Below are positions 7,519 to 16,506 of a stretch of 64,000 bases of DNA, one piece after another. Within the stretch, counting starts at the first letter, position 1, and the number at the start of each line of letters is the position of its first letter. The notes beneath the pieces were generated by a model. It had not been told where the DNA came from and made no database searches. It was given only the letters and a program-made list of their open reading frames with translations. The stretch is from Candidatus Chloroploca asiatica (GTDB lineage Bacteria > Chloroflexota > Chloroflexia > Chloroflexales > Chloroflexaceae), in contig NZ_LYXE01000024.1 of the NCBI RefSeq assembly GCF_002532075.1, positions 1-64,000 of the forward strand. The letters are read 5' to 3'. Made by a program: the position numbers and the translations under genes.

Positions 7519-9429
7519 TTATGCTTCTTCAGCGCTGACGGGTGGCGCTTCTATGGTCGTCGTCGTTTCCGCTGCCGTCGTGATTGCTTCTGGCTTGCTT
7601 GGGAGGCCGCTGGTTGCGGTTGGCGGGCCGGGCTCAACATTCAGTGCTATCAGCCACGCGCTGATTTGTTCGCGTCGTGCCACCGGATCTTCCGCGAGCC
7701 GCAATGGACGCCCGCGCGCGTCAATGACGACTCCTAGCGCACTGCCTGCAATTTCGCCCCCGTCGGAGGCAATGGTTTCACCAGGTTCAAGGCGCCCGAT
7801 CCGTACACCCGCCGCAGGGCGGATCGTCAATTCGCCGTAGCGCCCCTGCGGCAAGGGGAGGCGGGCAAGCGTGCCGTGTTTGACCTCGATGCGTTCCGTT
7901 GCGCCCCCAACAATCTTCAGTTCCACCTCGGCAGCTACGGTGTCGCTTGGCCCTTCACCAAGGAGGGTGACTACGCGTGCCAGGGGGACATTGGACAGCA
8001 GATCATGATCAACCAACGTCAACGCTGCCTCAGGGTTCAATTCGGCGATCGCCCCTGCGGTCACCAGCAAGCCCAGTGTATCGAGATGAACATCGATAAT
8101 CGGCTGATCCGAGGTGCCCATTGGTTCCAGCGCATCCAGAATGGTCAACAGAGCGAGCCCTGGCTGGGGGGTATGGGCAAGAATCCCACCCCCGGCAATG
8201 ATCCAGTCTACGGCATCAAGACTGGTCTGCTCGCGTAGCCTGGCAAGTGCCGCACGCAGGGCCTCGCAGGCAACCGCATGGGCCAGGTAGACATCGTCGC
8301 GACTCGCGGGCAAGATATATGGCCGCAAGGTTCGGTTGAGCAGTTGTTCACTGACGTCGCTTGTCGCCATGGCAAAGGGGAGCCAGCGGGCAAGCGTTGC
8401 GACGCCCTGCGTTGCCATCAACTCAGGCAGGCCATAGACGGTTCCGATGGTTCCGAGCACCGTCGGAATAAAGCGCCCCGGTGAGGCATAAAAAGCCGCG
8501 GTTGCGGCAGCCCCGGTGTCGAGCGTCAGCACGCTGCGCCCGGTGCGTTCGGCGAGAAAGCGTGTTATCACGCCCTGCACCGCACAGACCGTACGCACAG
8601 GCACAGCGCTAAGACTCTGCAGACTCGTCAGCCCTGCGAGCGAAGGCAAGATCTTGTCTTCGTAGAGCCTGGCGAGTTCCTGCTGGGTCGGGGCAAGATC
8701 AGCCCGATCAAGGGTGGGGCAAAGATTTGCGACATGCACGACCTCGGCTCGTTCGTGCAAAATCGCGCTCACGGTCTCGCGGGCCGCGCTGTTGCCAGCA
8801 TAAATGACCGGCCGTGTGGTCACTTTGGGTTGATATTGCCCATTCACATCAACGCCACTCTTCATTGCGATCAGGCGCACAATATGAGCCAGGCGCGTCA
8901 CCGCTTCGACCGCCCCACCCTCTAGACCACCGGCAAGCACAATGACCTCAGGATCGATTTGAAGCAATTGATCGATCTGATCATCGATCCACGAACGTTG
9001 GGTTGGGGCCAGGCCAGCTTGCCCACTGCTCGCGTCCAGGGTAAGTATCTGAAGCACGTTGGTATAGGTTGCGTGGCTCGCATGCAACGCGTGGTGCGCC
9101 GAAACATCGCTAGCAATCGCGGTAATCACCATTCGCATTGCACCAGCTGCACTTGTCACCACAAGCAGATGGGACACGCCGTCGTAGGTACTCGTCTGTG
9201 GCATCAGCAACTGACTGTCTTGTACTAGTTGACGCCCGGTCATCTGGCCGATCTGCCTAGTTGCTTCGAGCAAGCCATAGAAGACATTGCCAAACGGTGG
9301 CTCGGCTGTTGTGTTGGTCTCGGCATGGCCGATCATGCGATAATCGCCTTCGACCTCATCAATCAGCGTCACACGCGTGATCAGGCTGCCGATCTCAGCA
9401 ATAAGCATTGCGTCCGTTATCTCTGCCAT
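7519..9429 (-). CDS. MutL-family (glutamate mutase L-like) actin-fold protein, not near a mutase
   Basis: A 636-residue protein matching the MutL family (PF13941 type), whose members have an ASKHA/actin-like ATPase fold. Family landmarks in order: N-terminal AEIGSLITRVTLID (phosphate-1-like), VVTSAAGAMRMV, EVIVLAGGLEGGAVEA, VIYAGNSAA, and a phosphate-2-like LDTGAAATAAF. In classical MutL the corresponding sites read DIGST and DVGGATTD; here the first Asp is Glu and the last Asp is lost, so ATP hydrolysis may be altered. A Pro/Thr/Ala-rich tail follows residue ~600. No glutamate mutase mutE/mutS genes are nearby. It is the last gene of the cluster encoding the Trp-Leu motif protein and membrane partners. 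I infer a structural or chaperone role. Confidence 0.75.
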   Translation of the reverse strand: MAEITDAMLIAEIGSLITRVTLIDEVEGDYRMIGHAETNTTAEPPFGNVFYGLLEATRQIGQMTGRQLVQDSQLLMPQTSTYDGVSHLLVVTSAAGAMRMVITAIASDVSAHHALHASHATYTNVLQILTLDASSGQAGLAPTQRSWIDDQIDQLLQIDPEVIVLAGGLEGGAVEAVTRLAHIVRLIAMKSGVDVNGQYQPKVTTRPVIYAGNSAARETVSAILHERAEVVHVANLCPTLDRADLAPTQQELARLYEDKILPSLAGLTSLQSLSAVPVRTVCAVQGVITRFLAERTGRSVLTLDTGAAATAAFYASPGRFIPTVLGTIGTVYGLPELMATQGVATLARWLPFAMATSDVSEQLLNRTLRPYILPASRDDVYLAHAVACEALRAALARLREQTSLDAVDWIIAGGGILAHTPQPGLALLTILDALEPMGTSDQPIIDVHLDTLGLLVTAGAIAELNPEAALTLVDHDLLSNVPLARVVTLLGEGPSDTVAAEVELKIVGGATERIEVKHGTLARLPLPQGRYGELTIRPAAGVRIGRLEPGETIASDGGEIAGSALGVVIDARGRPLRLAEDPVARREQISAWLIALNVEPGPPTATSGLPSKPEAITTAAETTTTIEAPPVSAEEA

Positions 9430-9520
9430 ACTCTCTCGCTTGTCGCCCCCGCGCAGATGTCTTCGCGCTCGGGATCACACAGGAAACCGCAACTCGTTTA
9501 CTCCGCTTCCTCTGACCGTT

Positions 9521-10183
9521 CTAGCCAAGGGGAGCACGGAGCCAGGTGACAATAAATTCTAGCCGTTCATTCAGGGCCGTGAGGTAGGTGAGCAACCCGC
9601 CTGCCAGAAAGAAACCAAACGCCACGATCAAGAACCAGCGCCCCAGTTGTGCGCTTCCTCTGACCAATTGGCCCGATCGTGTCGTGGGGGCAAGGGTAAA
9701 GTAAAAGTAGCTCAGGGTCACCACAACCCCGAGGACAAGCAAGATAGCCCCGAGCACTTGCCCTGGATCGCTCCCGGTTGGTCGAATGCTGTCGAGAACC
9801 TGTGGTACCAGCGTCCCGACGATGGCCCCACCGACCGCGAGCGCGGTTCCCACGCCGAAGAGGATCGCGAGCGGAATATTCGCCAGCCACGAGAGTTTCT
9901 GCCGTCCAAAGAGGCGAGGCAGTAAGAGTAAGGCAAGGAACCAGGGTACGAGGCGAAGCATCAGGCCTGATGGATTATTCAGCTCACTGAGGATCACGAG
10001 CGCGTTGGGGCGCAGGATCTGATGGTAGACCACCACAAACGCATAGCCCAGCGAAAGCCCTACAAACAGATACTGCACCATCCGAAAGGCCGGGTTATCG
10101 CCAAGCAGGCGACTAAAGACGAGCAACGTCAGGCTAACCGCAATCAAACCGCTGATCAACGTCACCACGGCGTCACCACTCAT
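9521..10183 (-). CDS. Conserved-looking polytopic membrane protein (cluster member)
   Basis: A 220-residue hydrophobic protein with about six predicted membrane helices, starting MSGDAVVTLISGLIAVSLTLLVFSR by composition. A helix runs from about residue 30 (YLFVGLSLGYAFVVVYHQIL) and a last one near residue 180. I do not recognise a named family. Its ATG overlaps the stop of the Trp-Leu motif gene by four bases (ATGA), indicating translational coupling. The MutL-family gene starts 91 bases downstream. A role as membrane anchor for that cluster is inference. Confidence 0.7.
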   Translation of the reverse strand: MSGDAVVTLISGLIAVSLTLLVFSRLLGDNPAFRMVQYLFVGLSLGYAFVVVYHQILRPNALVILSELNNPSGLMLRLVPWFLALLLLPRLFGRQKLSWLANIPLAILFGVGTALAVGGAIVGTLVPQVLDSIRPTGSDPGQVLGAILLVLGVVVTLSYFYFTLAPTTRSGQLVRGSAQLGRWFLIVAFGFFLAGGLLTYLTALNERLEFIVTWLRAPLG

Positions 10184-13100
10184 GAGTCGTCTCCCTTCGG
10201 TCGCCCGGGGCGTGTTCCCAACGAGATGAGGACCCCACCGGCCAGCAAGACTAGGAACACAACGACCGCAAAAGAGAGTTGCCCAGTTGTTGCTGCGATC
10301 GTCGCGCTATCGCTATCAGCATCGGTCGACAGCAAGGCCAGCGCACCCTGTTGCCCTGCCAGATGATAGACCTTGGGTAGGCGGAGATAGGGTTGCGCCA
10401 ACGGTTGTGCCTCGTTGGGCAGCAAGAAGGTTATCGGAACCGCGGGGGCAGCGCGGTGTACCTGCTCCATCCAGGCTTGTACATCTTGTGCTTCATCGGC
10501 CAGCACCAGGATCATCGCAAGATCATCCAGGGTGCTAATACGCGGAGTTCCATCAGGGTTATTCGCCACCAGACTCTGCGAAGCATCGTTGCCGTCAAAA
10601 TCTGACTGCAGTTGCCCTCGGAAATCTTGTGCCAGTTGCCGTAAGGCCAGATCACCTCCAGGGCGATAGCCAAGCAATACATAATCACGGCCCCCAAGTG
10701 GGATGCCATTTTCGTTATTGTAACCAGCCTCGCGCAGTGGCTCGATCAGATCAAACGAGAGCAGCGTTCCCTGTAGGTCAGTGCTGACCAGAATCAGTTT
10801 CGTGCGGTTTGCCATCAACCGCTGCATCACGGCCCCTTCGAGTGGTCGTAGTTCGGCGCTTCGTTGGGCTGCCCATTCATAGGCTACCAGCACCACATCC
10901 TCGTCACCGAGGCCGTCAAGCAGCATCCCAAGTTCGGCCACCTCTGGACTGATTGGCACCTCACTCTGCAGCGGTGTTGTTATACCGGGGAAGATGAGGG
11001 CCACAAGTAAGGCAACCACCAGGATGCTATACAAGATCCGCTCAACGCCAATGCGTTGCCAGCGCGTCAGAGGCAATGGCTCCGCAGGTGCCACAGGCTC
11101 AGGGTAGGGCGACGCAACAATGCTCGCAAGGAGCGCCATATCGGTGAGTTGCTGCTCGCTACGCTTGCGCACCGTGGTTGGCCTGTGCGTCCCTTGCTCT
11201 ATGATCGGTTCAACAATGTTGACCGAGTCACTATCACTATCAACAATCCCGAGTCGCTTTAGCCAGTCGAGTTGGGTTGCCGGTTCCGAGTCACTTGGTC
11301 GTACCAGCCGCTCTGACTCTGATGGGCGGAGCCAGCGAGGCAATTCGGCCCCCTCCAGGAAGGTGTCGTCATCGTTGCTTTCGCTCTCTGCTGTGCCGAG
11401 GTTTGCGAGTGGTTCTGCGATCTGCGGGCTTTCGGGGTCATTGCCAAGCCCACGTAACCATGGGGCCAGCTTCGCATCTTTATCTGAACTGAGACCAGCC
11501 TCGTCCTCTTCATCCTGAAGCCACGGTGGCACTTCACTCGATGACAGCGCACCTCCGCCAGCCGACGTCGTTGCGCCTGTCTCGTCGCGCAACCACGCTG
11601 GTGCATCATCAACGGGTGGTTTCCCAGGTGCTTCGTCTTTTGTCTGCAGCCACGCGGGGGCCGCACTATCAGCGGGTGCCTCGTCCACGTCTTCCAGCCA
11701 GGCGGGCATGCCGTCCGGTGGGGGCGCAGCGGGTTGGGCCTCGTGTTGCGCGGCGGGGGCAAAAGGCTCAGCGGGTTCGGCGTCCACGTCTTCCAACCAG
11801 GCGGGCATGCCACCGGGTGGGGGCGCAGCGGGTTGGGCCTCGTGTTGCGCGGCGGGGGCGAAAGGCTCAGCGGGTTCGGCGTCCACGTCTTCCAACCAGG
11901 CGGGCATGCCACCGGGTGGGGGCGCAGCGGGTTGGGCCTCGTGTTGCGCGGCGGGGGCGAAAGGCTCAGCGGGTTCGGCGTCCACGTCTTCCAACCAGGC
12001 GGGCATGCCGCCCGGCGGGGGCGGCGCGGGTTCGGCCTCTGCTTGCCAATCTGCCGGAGCTTTCTCATCAGAGTCATCATCGGCTGAAGCGGCTTCACGG
12101 AGCCAGGAAGGCATCTCAGCATCAGGCTCAGCCACTTCGCCACTCGCTTGCAGCGCTTCTTCCCTGAGGCTTGCTTCAACTGGAGCGATCGCCTCACGGA
12201 GCCAAGTCGGAATATCCGCATCCGTGGGCGACTTCACCTCGGCGGCTGGTGCATCTTCCCTGAGCCACGCTGGAATCTCCTCGGAAGCATCGTCTGATTC
12301 ACTGAGCCAGTCAGGTGTTGCTGCTGCGGGAGTGGCTGGCTCATCTTGCAGCCATGCGAGCACATCATCAGCCTGCGCTGCGTCTGCGCGGGTGGCTTCA
12401 GCCAGATCTTCACGCAGCCACTCAGGAACCTGATCGTCAGCCGATGGTGTTTCAGCCTTACTCAGCCATGCAGGGGTCTCGACCGGGGGAATATCTTCAT
12501 CACGCAGCCAGGCTTCAACATCTTCGGGAGGCTGGCTGGCCTCAGGTGGGCCTGAATCAGCCGATGCATCGGCGAGCCATGCCGCAGCTTCACCCAGTTG
12601 TTCACCCTCTGCGACCGAACCAGCTTCCCAATCGGTGTCTGATGGTTCATCTGCTGGTTTATGCGCCTCGCGGAGCCAGGTTGGCACATCAGAGACAGTC
12701 GCCTGGGCATCAGTATCTGGCTGATTCTCGCCGTCGGCCTCATCGGACTCAGCTCGGGCCTCGGCTTCACGGAGCCAGGTAGGCACATCAGCAGGATCGA
12801 GGGAAGATGCCGGGGGCGAACGCTCCAAATCTTGCAGCCACGCGGGCATAACCTCGGCATCAGCGTCAGGCTCGTCGTCGGGTGCCTGCTGATCGTCCCT
12901 GAGCCAGTCGGGGACAGCAAGATCGGTTGCACGATCATCCGCTGCCGGTGCTTTCGCCTCATCACCACGGAGCCAGGTCGGCACATCCACTTCTGTCGAA
13001 GACTCAACGGCTCCCTCGCCCGCCTCATCACCACGCAACCACGTTGGCACATCAAGGTCAGTTGCGCTCTCTTGTGCTGGCTCGGAAGTAAGCCAGTCGG

Positions 13101-14007
13101 GGAGGTCGCTGACTTCGGCCTGAGGTGGTGCAGGAGGCTCAGAGGGAACATCGTCCCGGAGCCAGTCAGGGACATCATCAGTCTCAGCCTGTTCAAAGAG
13201 TTCAGCCGAAGAATCGGGCAGGTATCCTGCATCAGCCTCTTGCAGCCACCCGGGCACCTCATCAACCGGTGTTGTTGGCGTAGAGGGACTCTCCTCGGCA
13301 ATATCGCGAAGCCAGGCTGGAATTTCAGCACTTGCCGCAAGATTAGCTGCCTCATCACCTGCCTTGCGTTCTGGACGAGGCCCCGGCTCAGGTGACTCAG
13401 GTTCAGGTGGGAGTAACCAGTCAGGCAGTGGCTTGCGCGGCGCACCGCGGGCTACAGGTTGCTCGGATGGAGGTGGGGGGGAAAACACATCAAGCGATGG
13501 TTCTTCAGCTCCGAAGCGAGTCGGTTCAAGTGACGGGTCACTAACTTCGGCCTCGATAGCCCGGGCGACTTCCTCTTCGGTCAGATCACGCAACCAATCA
13601 GGAATGCCCTCATTGGCGAGCGCATCTTCATCGGTTGGCGGTTCAGCGGTCGTCTCATCAGGTTCAGCGAGATCCTGGCCCATGCTTACGAGCCAGTCAG
13701 TTGCGCCTGAGGGCAGCTTCACGCCAGCTTTCTGGGCTTGCTCATCAAAAGGAGGCTCATCAGCGCTCAGGGTTGGTTGCCCGGCCTGAGGATCAGCGAA
13801 GTCAGACAGCCAAGCATCAGCTTCTGGCAGTGAGGTACGGGTTGTCTCATCCTCGGCCACCTCTGCCTTGAGCTCACGCAACCATGTTGGCATCTGGTCT
13901 GCTGTCGACTCTGTGGCAGGGGGAAGCGGGGGTGGAGGTAGCTCCACCTCAGCGGCGGGGTTCGCGGGAAGCGACACATTACGAAGCCATGGGGGCAAAT
14001 GTTCCAT
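10180..14007 (-). CDS. Giant Trp-Leu motif repeat protein with C-terminal membrane-anchored domain
   Basis: A 1275-residue acidic protein of no family I can name. The first ~950 residues are Ala/Glu/Asp/Pro-rich, probably disordered, and carry about 35 short motifs of the form P-x-W-L-[R/Q/E]-[D/E] (PTWLRE, PDWLRD, PAWLED) spaced about 20-35 residues apart. They include three near-identical 33-residue units plus a partial fourth. The C-terminal ~300 residues are ordered: a helix (ILYSILVVALLVALIFPG), a soluble domain with repeated VVLVAYEW/ILVSTDLQG-like strands, and a final helix near the end followed by a basic tail. Soluble domain between two helices suggests an extracytoplasmic placement with the motif region in the cytoplasm. 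The gene lies 1 base after one membrane-protein gene and overlaps the next. I infer a scaffold that displays many identical short binding motifs. Confidence 0.8.
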   Translation of the reverse strand: MEHLPPWLRNVSLPANPAAEVELPPPPLPPATESTADQMPTWLRELKAEVAEDETTRTSLPEADAWLSDFADPQAGQPTLSADEPPFDEQAQKAGVKLPSGATDWLVSMGQDLAEPDETTAEPPTDEDALANEGIPDWLRDLTEEEVARAIEAEVSDPSLEPTRFGAEEPSLDVFSPPPPSEQPVARGAPRKPLPDWLLPPEPESPEPGPRPERKAGDEAANLAASAEIPAWLRDIAEESPSTPTTPVDEVPGWLQEADAGYLPDSSAELFEQAETDDVPDWLRDDVPSEPPAPPQAEVSDLPDWLTSEPAQESATDLDVPTWLRGDEAGEGAVESSTEVDVPTWLRGDEAKAPAADDRATDLAVPDWLRDDQQAPDDEPDADAEVMPAWLQDLERSPPASSLDPADVPTWLREAEARAESDEADGENQPDTDAQATVSDVPTWLREAHKPADEPSDTDWEAGSVAEGEQLGEAAAWLADASADSGPPEASQPPEDVEAWLRDEDIPPVETPAWLSKAETPSADDQVPEWLREDLAEATRADAAQADDVLAWLQDEPATPAAATPDWLSESDDASEEIPAWLREDAPAAEVKSPTDADIPTWLREAIAPVEASLREEALQASGEVAEPDAEMPSWLREAASADDDSDEKAPADWQAEAEPAPPPPGGMPAWLEDVDAEPAEPFAPAAQHEAQPAAPPPGGMPAWLEDVDAEPAEPFAPAAQHEAQPAAPPPGGMPAWLEDVDAEPAEPFAPAAQHEAQPAAPPPDGMPAWLEDVDEAPADSAAPAWLQTKDEAPGKPPVDDAPAWLRDETGATTSAGGGALSSSEVPPWLQDEEDEAGLSSDKDAKLAPWLRGLGNDPESPQIAEPLANLGTAESESNDDDTFLEGAELPRWLRPSESERLVRPSDSEPATQLDWLKRLGIVDSDSDSVNIVEPIIEQGTHRPTTVRKRSEQQLTDMALLASIVASPYPEPVAPAEPLPLTRWQRIGVERILYSILVVALLVALIFPGITTPLQSEVPISPEVAELGMLLDGLGDEDVVLVAYEWAAQRSAELRPLEGAVMQRLMANRTKLILVSTDLQGTLLSFDLIEPLREAGYNNENGIPLGGRDYVLLGYRPGGDLALRQLAQDFRGQLQSDFDGNDASQSLVANNPDGTPRISTLDDLAMILVLADEAQDVQAWMEQVHRAAPAVPITFLLPNEAQPLAQPYLRLPKVYHLAGQQGALALLSTDADSDSATIAATTGQLSFAVVVFLVLLAGGVLISLGTRPGRPKGDDS
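11690..12030 (-). repeat. 99-bp tandem repeat inside the Trp-Leu motif gene
   Basis: The string GCGGGCATG recurs at 11702, 11801, 11900 and 11999, exactly 99 bases apart. The intervening DNA is nearly identical, while the other motif copies in the gene are diverged. The unit encodes 33 residues centred on MPAWLEDVDAEPAEP. The near-identity points to recent expansion and probable length variation between strains. Confidence 0.9.
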
Positions 14008-14008
14008 G

Positions 14009-14674
14009 TCAGCGATCGAGATACGGTGTATCGAAGCCGAGCAGCACGCGCACCCCGGCTACCAATGCACCAAGAGCGGCACCGATGACCAGGCCTCGGG
14101 CACCAGCCACGGCCACAACATCATTCAGCCATTGAAGGGTACCGCCAATCGTTGGCACTACTGCGAGCAAGGGCAGCTGGGCCAGCAGCACGAGGGCGGC
14201 CACCACAATCATCACGATAGCCTCGCCGCGTCGCTGTTGCACAGAACGCAGGGCGGCACTCAGGCTAAAAAAGGTAAGCAAAGCCAGGAGACTACTCGCA
14301 ACTGGCTCATAGACCACACGAAAGACCGTCCGAATAGGCACTTCAGCCAGATTTGCGGGAAGCACCAGGCCCCCGCGTCCTGGTAGGGGAAAGAAGATGC
14401 CGGCGACCAGCATCACAACCATCCCTACGAGCAGCACCAGGCTATAGCGCCAATCGTTCTGTTGCTGGCGTACTCGCCCCACGTGGTGCCCGGCCACACT
14501 CACGATCCCGAACAGCAGGGCAACTGCGGTCAGCACGGCTGCCCATCCAACGAGCAGCGTTGCCAGGGCTGCAAGTGCACCCTCACCCCCGGCAAAATCT
14601 ATGAGGACAATCGCCCCACAGACTCCGGCAAGCATGACAGCAAACAGGCGTTTCACATCGCGCAGCAATGACAT
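14009..14674 (-). CDS. Polytopic membrane protein (cluster member)
   Basis: A 221-residue protein with six or so hydrophobic segments, including AALATLLVGWAAVLTAVALLF, YSLVLLVGMVVMLVAGIFFP and LLALLTFFSLSAAL. No named family is recognised. It sits one base upstream of the Trp-Leu motif gene and 10 bases downstream of the DUF6754-like gene, all on the minus strand, so the four genes are almost certainly one transcript. It resembles the later 220-residue membrane protein in size and topology but not obviously in sequence. Confidence 0.7.
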   Translation of the reverse strand: MSLLRDVKRLFAVMLAGVCGAIVLIDFAGGEGALAALATLLVGWAAVLTAVALLFGIVSVAGHHVGRVRQQQNDWRYSLVLLVGMVVMLVAGIFFPLPGRGGLVLPANLAEVPIRTVFRVVYEPVASSLLALLTFFSLSAALRSVQQRRGEAIVMIVVAALVLLAQLPLLAVVPTIGGTLQWLNDVVAVAGARGLVIGAALGALVAGVRVLLGFDTPYLDR

Positions 14675-14684
14675 AGTATCTGCT

Positions 14685-15485
14685 TCAGGGTGATGGTAGC
14701 GGAGGCAAATTCAGCACAGGTTGGAGCAAGCTATAGAGCAACCCACCGATCAATACCAGGATGGTCACGGTACGCAGACCATCCTGGGTCAGCAGACGTG
14801 CCTGGGCGGGACCTTCGGTATCCAGATAGGCTTCAGCCGCAAAAATCTCTTCTCCAATCAATGTAGAAGGCGTTGTCAGCAGCATGAGTGGCAGAGCCGA
14901 CGCACTGGTTGTGCCAACCACCTGGGGCACATGGCGTTGTGCCCCCTCTTCACCGGCTAGCAAAAACTCTTGTTGAAAACCACCGACGAGCACACTGAGT
15001 TCAAGCGGCTCACGGGCATAGACAGTTGCGACACCGGTCGCATAGGCAAACTTGTCATTATGCGCGAGCAGTTGCACAGACGACGCGTCATAGGCGCGGG
15101 CTTGTCCGGCCATCTGATAAGCCTGGCGCACGCTGCCACGCAGGGCGCTATGGGCAATCACATCACCCGACGTCACCAGGATGGGAGCACCTTTGAGGGC
15201 GGCCTCACTACTAATACGCTGAACCACCAGCAAACCGGCGAGCAACTCGGTGGTACGTGCGCGACTACCATCGGCTGCCCCGAGCACACTTGCCCCTGGG
15301 GAAAGATGCACGGCCCGTCCCGTCTCGGCCCCACGCCCGAGGGCAGTTTGCACCGGATCAAGGGCTGGCAACGGGCGCAGCGGCGGGAGTCGGCCATTCA
15401 CTGCCCGTGCGTGATGGAGCCAGGTCATTGCCACGACCACCAGCAGGGCGACGAGCAACAAGATTGCTTCAGGGGCAAGGACCAT
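14685..15485 (-). CDS. DUF6754-like membrane protein
   Basis: A 266-residue protein resembling DUF6754 proteins of Chloroflexota, an assignment made from memory of the family. ATG 15485 is preferred over the longer frame to 15578, because the product then begins directly with the helix LAPEAILLLVALLVVVAMTW. A central soluble domain contains LVTSGDVIAHSALRGSVRQAYQ-type sequence and a stretch with GFQQEFLLAGEEGA. A C-terminal helix (TVTILVLIGGLLYSLLQPVL) lies near the end. Function unknown. It heads the tight four-gene run that continues with two membrane proteins and the Trp-Leu motif protein. The MutL-family gene follows after a 91-base gap. Confidence 0.65.
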   Translation of the reverse strand: MVLAPEAILLLVALLVVVAMTWLHHARAVNGRLPPLRPLPALDPVQTALGRGAETGRAVHLSPGASVLGAADGSRARTTELLAGLLVVQRISSEAALKGAPILVTSGDVIAHSALRGSVRQAYQMAGQARAYDASSVQLLAHNDKFAYATGVATVYAREPLELSVLVGGFQQEFLLAGEEGAQRHVPQVVGTTSASALPLMLLTTPSTLIGEEIFAAEAYLDTEGPAQARLLTQDGLRTVTILVLIGGLLYSLLQPVLNLPPLPSP

Positions 15486-15574
15486 GGGTCTACTCCAGCC
15501 AGACGTTCCCTGGCAATCCTTTACAATGCAAAAGGGTTTCGTCGCTATGAGTGTAACCCAGCGCAAAGCCTTTG

Positions 15575-15811
15575 TCAATCATCGCGCGCAAGCAGTTGGC
15601 GCAGTTCGCCCCATCCATCAGGTTCACCGAGCGCGGTTGCAACCGGCTCGATCCTTGTCCCGCGCACAAAAGGCATTCCAAACCGTACCAGGTTACTACT
15701 CAGCACATCAATCGGGCCAAACATCTCAAGGATCAGCAGGGTGGGTGTGCGCAAGCCGGCCCGCTCGAGCCGTGCGGCCAGGCTCACCAGTGATTCCTCA
15801 GGGCTTGACAT
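15575..15811 (-). CDS. Small hypothetical protein
   Basis: A 78-residue soluble protein with no recognised family. ATG 15811 is chosen, although the frame is open further upstream, because this start overlaps the end of the SRPBCC gene by 14 bases in a typical coupled arrangement. The sequence begins SSPEESLVSLAARLERAGLR, predicted helical, and continues with LLILEMFGPIDVLSSNLV. It lies 89 bases upstream of the DUF6754-like gene. Its genuine status rests on position and amino-acid composition only. Confidence 0.5.
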   Translation of the reverse strand: MSSPEESLVSLAARLERAGLRTPTLLILEMFGPIDVLSSNLVRFGMPFVRGTRIEPVATALGEPDGWGELRQLLARDD

Positions 15812-16256
15812 GGGGCGTTCCTTCAACCCGATGTTTGAGCGCCTCCAAAAACTCATCGGCGAGCCGCTCGAAGCGTCGGCGCTGCGTCGTATCGAGGAGA
15901 CTTGCAATCAACCCGTGCAAATCAATCGAGTCGACGCGTTCAATCCGAGACTGACCATTTTCAAGTGGCACAATGCGACAGCGGTTGAACCCAGTCAACG
16001 GCGGAAAGCTGATCTGAAACCGTGTTACCCGGATCAGCGGGGTAAATTCAACCACCTGCATATCTGCATGCACCACCCGTCCACTCAACCGAAAGCGATA
16101 GCCTGGCCCTGGCGTGGACCCTTCTGGTAGGTCGACGCGTACATTCTCAAACGAGGGCATCCAGGCAGGCCAGTGACCAAAATCATCAAGCACCGCAAAG
16201 ATCTGTTCGGGTGAGGCTGTGGTAATTGCCGAGGCTGCGATCTCATAACTGATCAT
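15798..16256 (-). CDS. SRPBCC/START-like family protein
   Basis: A 152-residue polyketide cyclase/dehydrase-like (SRPBCC) protein. The fold pattern is visible as SPEQIFAVLDDFGHWPAWMPSF at the N-terminus, a run of alternating beta strands in the middle, and a C-terminal amphipathic helix (RRRFERLADEFLEALKHRV). Such proteins bind hydrophobic ligands in a deep pocket; the ligand cannot be inferred. The gene overlaps the next small gene and follows the RemB-like gene by 13 bases, suggesting one transcript with them. Confidence 0.72.
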   Translation of the reverse strand: MISYEIAASAITTASPEQIFAVLDDFGHWPAWMPSFENVRVDLPEGSTPGPGYRFRLSGRVVHADMQVVEFTPLIRVTRFQISFPPLTGFNRCRIVPLENGQSRIERVDSIDLHGLIASLLDTTQRRRFERLADEFLEALKHRVEGTPHVKP

Positions 16257-16269
16257 AAGCAGACTAATC

Positions 16270-16506
16270 TTATCTCTTGACCGTTGAACTACGCCATGTG
16301 GCCCACCGCCGACGCAGTTGTTCAGCGGGCCAGCGTGCTGGCAGGTAGCCCCCGTGATGGGTCACGACGACGGCCATCACGCCCTGCGGCACTTGTCCAT
16401 ATGTCTGTCGAATCCGCCCATCAAGTGCAGGCTGATAGTGCAGCACTGCAACGATCTCGTGGAAGGGCAACACGAGTCCATTATACCCAAGCCAGAGGGT
16501 TTCCAC
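16270..16506 (-). CDS. RemB/DUF370-like small regulatory protein
   Basis: A 78-residue protein resembling the DUF370/RemB family. Parallels with Bacillus RemB are an N-terminal strand (LWLGYNGLVLPFHEIVAVL), a Val-Pro-x-Gly turn leading to MAVVVT, and a C-terminal segment ending AEQLRRRW, which parallels the LKKR tail. RemA/RemB proteins affect extracellular matrix genes, and RemA is a DNA-binding regulator. The start is GTG 16506; an in-frame stop lies four codons upstream, so no longer start exists. There is almost no leader, because a TATAAT box is only 14 bases upstream. It heads the run leading to the membrane/MutL cluster. Family assignment is by eye. Confidence 0.5.
   Translation of the reverse strand: METLWLGYNGLVLPFHEIVAVLHYQPALDGRIRQTYGQVPQGVMAVVVTHHGGYLPARWPAEQLRRRWATWRSSTVKR

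Follow-up and report, generated by a model that had tools for sequence, protein, structure and literature searches.

A MutL-family ATPase and a set of membrane proteins are encoded together in Chloroflexota and other bacterial phyla

The first 64,000 nucleotides of contig NZ_LYXE01000024.1 from Candidatus Chloroploca asiatica (hereafter the window) carry a cassette of minus-strand genes that includes a protein of the MutL family and four membrane-protein families. We found that seven families, called here S, MutL, BSH, DUF6754, TM1, Cdom and TM2, recur together across several phyla. In Chloroflexota, Cdom is preceded in the same protein by a long region of Trp-Leu (WL) motifs. These families may make up a bacterial membrane machine that is ancient and has not been described before, driven by a MutL-type ATPase, which in Chloroflexota the WL tail would gather into membrane clusters or condensates; we are as ready to believe this as to doubt it.

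Gene positions and strands in the window were established by an open reading frame (ORF) check, and the proteins were scanned by hmmscan against Pfam, NCBIfam and PADLOC-DB 2.0.0. The first gene of the cassette encodes S (15575-15811), a small protein of 78 residues. It is followed by DUF6754 (14685-15578), in which a cytoplasmic Rossmann-like domain is predicted between two transmembrane (TM) segments, and for which an ATG near 15485 is the more likely start. Next come TM1 (14009-14674), a membrane protein of about six helices whose family consensus ends in DRPYL, and the WL gene (10180-14007), encoding 1275 residues. The N-terminal 980 residues of the WL protein (11068-14007) are acidic, proline-rich, predicted to be cytoplasmic, and contain 35 Trp-Leu motifs; its C-terminal part, Cdom (10180-11067), consists of a predicted extracytoplasmic Rossmann-like domain flanked by TM segments. 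The last two genes are TM2 (9521-10183), again of about six helices and with an LTLxVFSxLxGDNPxFR motif, and MutL (7519-9429), belonging to an ATPase family whose fold we take to be actin/Hsp70-like (ASKHA).

The five genes from DUF6754 to MutL are tightly packed, with gaps of 10 bases between DUF6754 and TM1 and 1 base between TM1 and WL, an overlap of 4 between WL and TM2, and a gap of 91 before MutL. A preliminary description of this DNA had reported these five co-stranded genes with the same coordinates and junctions, and they are real. The two family names that it had assigned by eye agree with Pfam: DUF6754 scored 119.3 bits against PF20539 and MutL 214 bits against PF13941 (profile positions 2-450 of 450), the cut-off being 27 in both cases, and each model has a single match in the genome. 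None of eight window proteins matched an anti-phage model of PADLOC-DB 2.0.0 (E≤0.01), and a scan for promoters and terminators gave results near the shuffled expectation.

In a sample of 301 genomes, read as Chloroflexota, DUF6754 was present in 67 and PF13941 scored over its cut-off in 124, GlmL-type proteins included. Linkage across the phylum had been set as a test of the system, and it was borne out: MutL lay downstream of DUF6754, on the same strand and 2779-7258 bases away, in 55 of the 67 genomes. Among the other 12, MutL was on another contig in 10, and the PF13941 hit was absent in two (G273 and G081). Ten of these 12 unlinked DUF6754 genes were checked for their position (those other than G214 and G081), and each sits no more than about 3 kb from where its contig ends. 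When 40 neighbourhoods were laid out, the order DUF6754, TM1, WL, TM2, MutL appeared in many families, some parts being missed where the simple gene picker took another frame. The nearest named relatives were Candidatus Chloroploca sp. Khr17 (93%) and Ca. Chloroploca mongolica (90%).

Contigs were also scanned by MutL alignment, using the pattern G[LV][IV][IVF]DARGRP; 558 relatives were confirmed and the best 80 kept. Among these best 80 of 558 loci, 44 held DUF6754, TM1, WL/Cdom, TM2 and MutL, 26 of them with BSH as well, while nine held MutL alone and four had just MutL and BSH; of these 13 loci, six are on contigs shorter than 9 kb. MutL, BSH, DUF6754, TM1, Cdom and TM2 were found together in Scalindua (L161), in Planctomycetota (L171), in Latescibacterota (L170) and in a Symbiobacterium-labelled metagenome-assembled genome (L153); in these four loci the Cdom protein is free-standing, 269-298 residues long, and contains no PxW[LM] motif. 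TM2 was present in all ten genomes reached via chosen loci, and among 199 genomes from the planctomycete phylum 49 contained it. Sixteen planctomycete regions were chosen among the TM2 hits. Five of them (L202, L203, L205, L208, L209) have all seven families, without WL repeats, in the order S-MutL-BSH-DUF6754-TM1-Cdom-TM2, and four more (L210, L211, L213, L214) have six of the seven. L201 and L204 contain quartets of DUF6754, TM1, Cdom and TM2 with MutL out of view, BSH lies further upstream in L215, and L206, L207, L212 and L216 hold parts only.

Since planctomycete and other genomes have the same operon but no WL region, we read the WL region as a lineage-specific, Chloroflexota addition to an older system, and Cdom as the older part of the protein. 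The uncharacterised membrane-associated system put forward in the preliminary description is retained, but its WL scaffold appears to be such an addition and not part of the core. Likewise, its five linked genes stand, but S had merely been listed as a neighbour and BSH, which is unlinked in this genome, had been overlooked. An accidental cluster of unrelated housekeeping genes might have been suspected from the variable flanking genes and from the want of a known function; the association of the same families across several phyla, in differing module orders and with tandem duplication of the quartet, makes this very improbable.

S is a conserved member of the system. The family has a median length of 96 residues and a motif like GLxxPAxxFLExxxPLSFxGSQ. 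A relative was detected in 37 of 131 loci and in 9 of 35 MutL groups, 34 times at position -1 on the same strand, and in other phyla S lies upstream of MutL or of the quartet. BSH proteins, mostly 290-420 residues long, follow MutL in many families, often with overlapping genes, and also adjoin MutL in families devoid of the quartet; at E≤0.001, BSH was found in 188 of the 301 genomes. Their barrel-sandwich and KOW matches were mostly weak. When nine proteins, mostly BSH, were scanned against Pfam, one BSH came slightly over the RnfC_N cut-off, and comparison with Protein Data Bank (PDB) sequences returned only KOW, barrel-sandwich and other short partial pieces. BSH therefore resembles, mostly weakly, both barrel-sandwich domains (RnfC_N, NqrA_N) and KOW domains (Spt5, uL24), but neither another domain of RnfC, NqrA, Spt5 or uL24 nor any redox or RNA-polymerase gene was observed with it.

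The MutL of the window shares its Pfam family and ATPase motifs with GlmL/MutL of glutamate mutase and with Or-4 of ornithine degradation (NF040745, NF040744, PF13941). In an alignment of 28 rows, Chloroflexota MutLs mostly kept the motifs D/E-x-G-S-xx-T-K/R, VDxGAxxT and xGGxL...PG. Unlike GlmL and Or-4, the window type has a C-terminal extension past the Pfam domain (7519-7998) with a GLIIDARGRP motif (D570, R572, G573, R574 and P575; also W592), is accompanied by BSH and the membrane quartet, and has no mutase genes. DARGRP was near-invariant in the 28 rows and absent from six of six canonical GlmLs. In a MutL tree of 50 rows, drawn with a midpoint root and including several rows with long branches or unusual composition, a single branch sets off each of three groups: GlmL with 6 rows (100/100), Chloroflexota with 29 (100/99) and the other phyla with 15 (94/92).

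Could this MutL nevertheless serve the maturation of an amino-acid mutase, the membrane genes being incidental? The family name would suggest so, as would the similarity to the GlmL equivalog NF040745 (72.8 bits for the window protein, 231 bits for a planctomycete MutL), but both scores are below the cut-off of 475, and GlmL is set apart by its own clade and by the missing extension. Mutase E (PF06368) exceeded its cut-off in only 5 of the 301 genomes and had no match in the window's own genome. It adjoins GlmL in G065 and G168, and G168 carries both MutL types, far apart. No mutase gene was seen beside the MutL type of the window, in line with the absence of a mutase link claimed earlier for this DNA. 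We give the mutase explanation almost no credence.

Topology was predicted by the positive-inside rule on Chloroflexota rows only; of 25 Cdom rows, one (L050) was skipped. All 21 DUF6754 rows put the domain in the cytoplasm, and in all 24 scored rows Cdom came out as extracytoplasmic, which agrees with the membrane association and the cytoplasmic WL region proposed in the preliminary description. AlphaFold2 models of the DUF6754 domain (pLDDT 89.5) and of Cdom (pLDDT 85.1) are both Rossmann-like. In fold comparison they reached VIA Z values of up to 10.1 and 8.7, respectively, against RCK, sirtuin-like, SDR and other Rossmann domains; the best Z of Cdom against an RCK domain was 8.1, to MthK, tied with SDR folds. 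Cdom differs from those domains in being predicted outside the cell. Foldseek found no match at E≤0.001 for either model. No close fold relative of DUF6754 or Cdom emerged from the fold libraries, which yielded generic Rossmann matches only (families unlisted there are possible). No relation between DUF6754 and Cdom, or between TM1 and TM2, was found by hhalign.

The DUF6754 protein of the window is a member of PF20539, a family of unknown function, against which a planctomycete member scored 394 bits. Several planctomycete members have a long N-terminal region which, by eye, looks like a signal peptide and an FN3-like domain ahead of the TM segment; those Chloroflexota members that were read lack it. 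The Pfam scan of the planctomycete proteins listed DUF6754 only, no scan aimed at FN3 having been made beyond it. The appearance of this region fits an N-terminus placed outside the cell.

A transport or envelope-building machine might be imagined from these topologies, with TM1 and TM2 as channel or transporter, MutL providing energy or gating, and the outer domains binding substrate. TM1 and TM2 are indeed multi-helix proteins with conserved polar motifs, and both the FN3-like region of planctomycete DUF6754 proteins and the extracytoplasmic Cdom would suit such a role. However, TM1 and TM2 match no transporter family and have no PDB relative by sequence. TM1 had no Pfam match at E≤0.1, and when the six aligned families (a set without S) were searched against PDB sequences, five of them, TM1 and TM2 included, had no match. 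Flanking genes named by Pfam (29 proteins) pointed to no shared pathway, and no shared cargo gene was seen among them. We regard transport as a possible but unlikely function.

Within the WL region, 35 of the 37 tryptophans sit in WL pairs, exactly the number of motifs reported in the preliminary description; its 980 residues comprise 23% D+E and 5% K+R. PxWL occurs 28 times, whereas 2000 shuffles gave 0.45 on average and never more than 4. Part of the array is a recent tandem duplication, by which the array has grown: a 99 bp unit is repeated 3.7 times at 11669-12039, with 94% matches. The copy number of this repeat may be uncertain, the assembly being a draft.

ORFs matching the WL/Cdom profile contain between 0 and 62 PxW[LM] motifs. 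Loci L032-L171 have 859 other predicted ORFs with a length of 300 residues or more, and only eight of these had at least three. Five of these are directly upstream of MutL (L052-L056), as is that of L147; L122 is MutL itself, and the ORF of L101, situated between TM1 and the WL frame, is on that ground taken for a piece of a split WL gene. Over the loci covered, clustered WL motifs are confined, by position, to genes of this system. The five L052-L056 proteins are zinc-ribbon-like, with 7-14 PxW[LM], no TM segment counted and a basic-aromatic C-terminal tail. The quartet profiles matched nothing in these loci, and DUF6754 hits were absent from their genomes. A separate WL-repeat protein adjoining MutL fits binding of the WL tail to MutL or BSH, and in two Herpetosiphonaceae-like loci (L036, L037) the C-terminal tail of MutL itself bears WL motifs. 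The simplest reading of these gene contexts suggests that MutL or BSH binds the WL motif. By analogy, the WL protein may work like EPYC1 and CsoS2, which are multivalent short-motif scaffolds. It too has many short motifs, here Trp-containing and set in a flexible acidic chain, but the motif is different and the chain is anchored in the membrane, so that the likeness would be one of working only.

The WL tail could also be thought to anchor actin-like MutL filaments, forming a polymerising, membrane-bound cytoskeleton involved, for example, in filamentous cell shape or gliding. Besides the actin fold that we presume for the MutL family, the basic-aromatic C-terminal tails of some MutL and WL proteins, which we take to resemble the anchors of FtsA and MinD, favour this idea. 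So do the long WL tails found in bacteria related to Chloroflexus and Herpetosiphon, both of filamentous habit. Yet hmmscan (E≤0.1) listed PF13941 alone for the window MutL, not MreB/Mbl (PF06723), the genome has a strong MreB of its own, and full operons without WL exist in planctomycete genomes. We also know of no polymerisation among GlmL relatives. We estimate a cytoskeleton to be possible, but slightly less likely than transport.

Replacement of MreB as a general rule had been considered too, and was dropped, MreB matches being found in 301 of 301 genomes. Separately, these matches were only weak (at a DnaK-like level, in our reading) in several families (among them f13, f22, f38, f41 and f15), including those of L052-L056; of the five named, all except f13 have PF13941 hits in the sample. 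In another family, f26 (G069, G149, G202, G028), a distance of about 4-7 kb separates MreB from MutL or BSH.

What we propose is one conserved membrane-associated system in which an ASKHA ATPase would remodel the membrane quartet and the WL tail would recruit the ATPase, a model built from sequence and one we judge evenly poised between right and wrong. The core in the membrane would consist of DUF6754, TM1, Cdom and TM2, with a Rossmann-like domain on either side, that of DUF6754 within the cell and Cdom outside it. MutL, which has a C-terminal extension of its own, would dock on the core via BSH and S. The ATP cycle of MutL would change the state of the core as GlmL-type chaperone ATPases presumably do with enzyme complexes, the target here being a membrane one. 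In Chloroflexota, a flexible, acidic tail that faces the cytoplasm and bears up to 62 PxW[LM] would have been added to the Cdom protein; this tail may bind many copies of MutL or BSH and so concentrate them at the membrane.

Several observations weigh against this proposal. BSH lies away from the cassette in the window's own genome (G000:C9:95990-97102), and it is unlinked throughout the order to which the window belongs. At five Armatimonadota loci MutL is present but BSH and the quartet are missing from stretches of 15-22 kb; the sole Armatimonadota genome checked (L131) has S and a quartet elsewhere. One Eisenbacteria genome (G302; L165, L191-L195) has five TM2 copies, each in a quartet and none beside MutL in the fetched stretches. 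A domain-level hidden Markov model search found no multi-component gene fusion; L206 and L212 have long TM1 ORFs, but the insert in these does not match DUF6754, and L213 has a long Cdom ORF in which no match to TM1 was seen. In the MutL of the window, as in L033 and L034, Glu replaces the first Asp of phosphate motif 1. The planctomycete MutL is nearer to GlmL than that of the window, and under the midpoint root GlmL groups with the MutLs of other phyla (100/99), so that the tree fails to show the MutL of the system as one clade apart from GlmL. As to the WL tail, it is gene context alone that suggests its link to MutL. The strict DNA pattern PxWLR[DE] gave 9 hits in the genome, 6 of them in the WL gene, versus 11 in a backwards control; not being above the control, this count is uninformative on WL motifs elsewhere.

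We hold the system to be new because no description was found in the literature library searched and no known system matched in the libraries used. DUF6754 was not mentioned in the open-access literature (most subscription journals and preprints lying outside the search), nothing on this operon appeared among the matches listed there, and of the seven families only MutL and DUF6754 matched Pfam models over cut-off, both in the window set and in the planctomycete one. Genes that several phyla keep together, with no description in the literature searched, point to an unnamed process. If the proposal is true, MutL-family ATPases gain a role outside B12-enzyme maintenance and DUF6754 a defined set of partners, and the natural series of zero, few and up to 62 WL motifs could serve to study a repeat scaffold added to a working membrane complex.

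Two further genes stand just upstream of S in the window, on the same strand. An SRPBCC protein (15798-16256) noted earlier is real (PF10604), but among the 40 neighbourhoods a relative was listed solely in L033, L034 and L070, all from the window's own family, and it is not a conserved part of the system. Neither is the 78-residue ORF at 16270-16506, and the name RemB-like given to it is unsupported, as it had no Pfam, NCBIfam (E≤0.1) or PADLOC match.

Other neighbours were seen elsewhere. In L046, L051, L067 and 18 further loci (five groups), the gene that immediately follows the cassette encodes a further protein family; LPxTG occurs close to the C-terminus in 11 of these 21. L201, L202 and L203, from the planctomycete phylum, each have two neighbouring quartets, with an ABC ATPase gene between them in L203. 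In L205, ExbD/TolR-like and TatD genes are located upstream of S, and genes of the same or like size occupy this place in L208.

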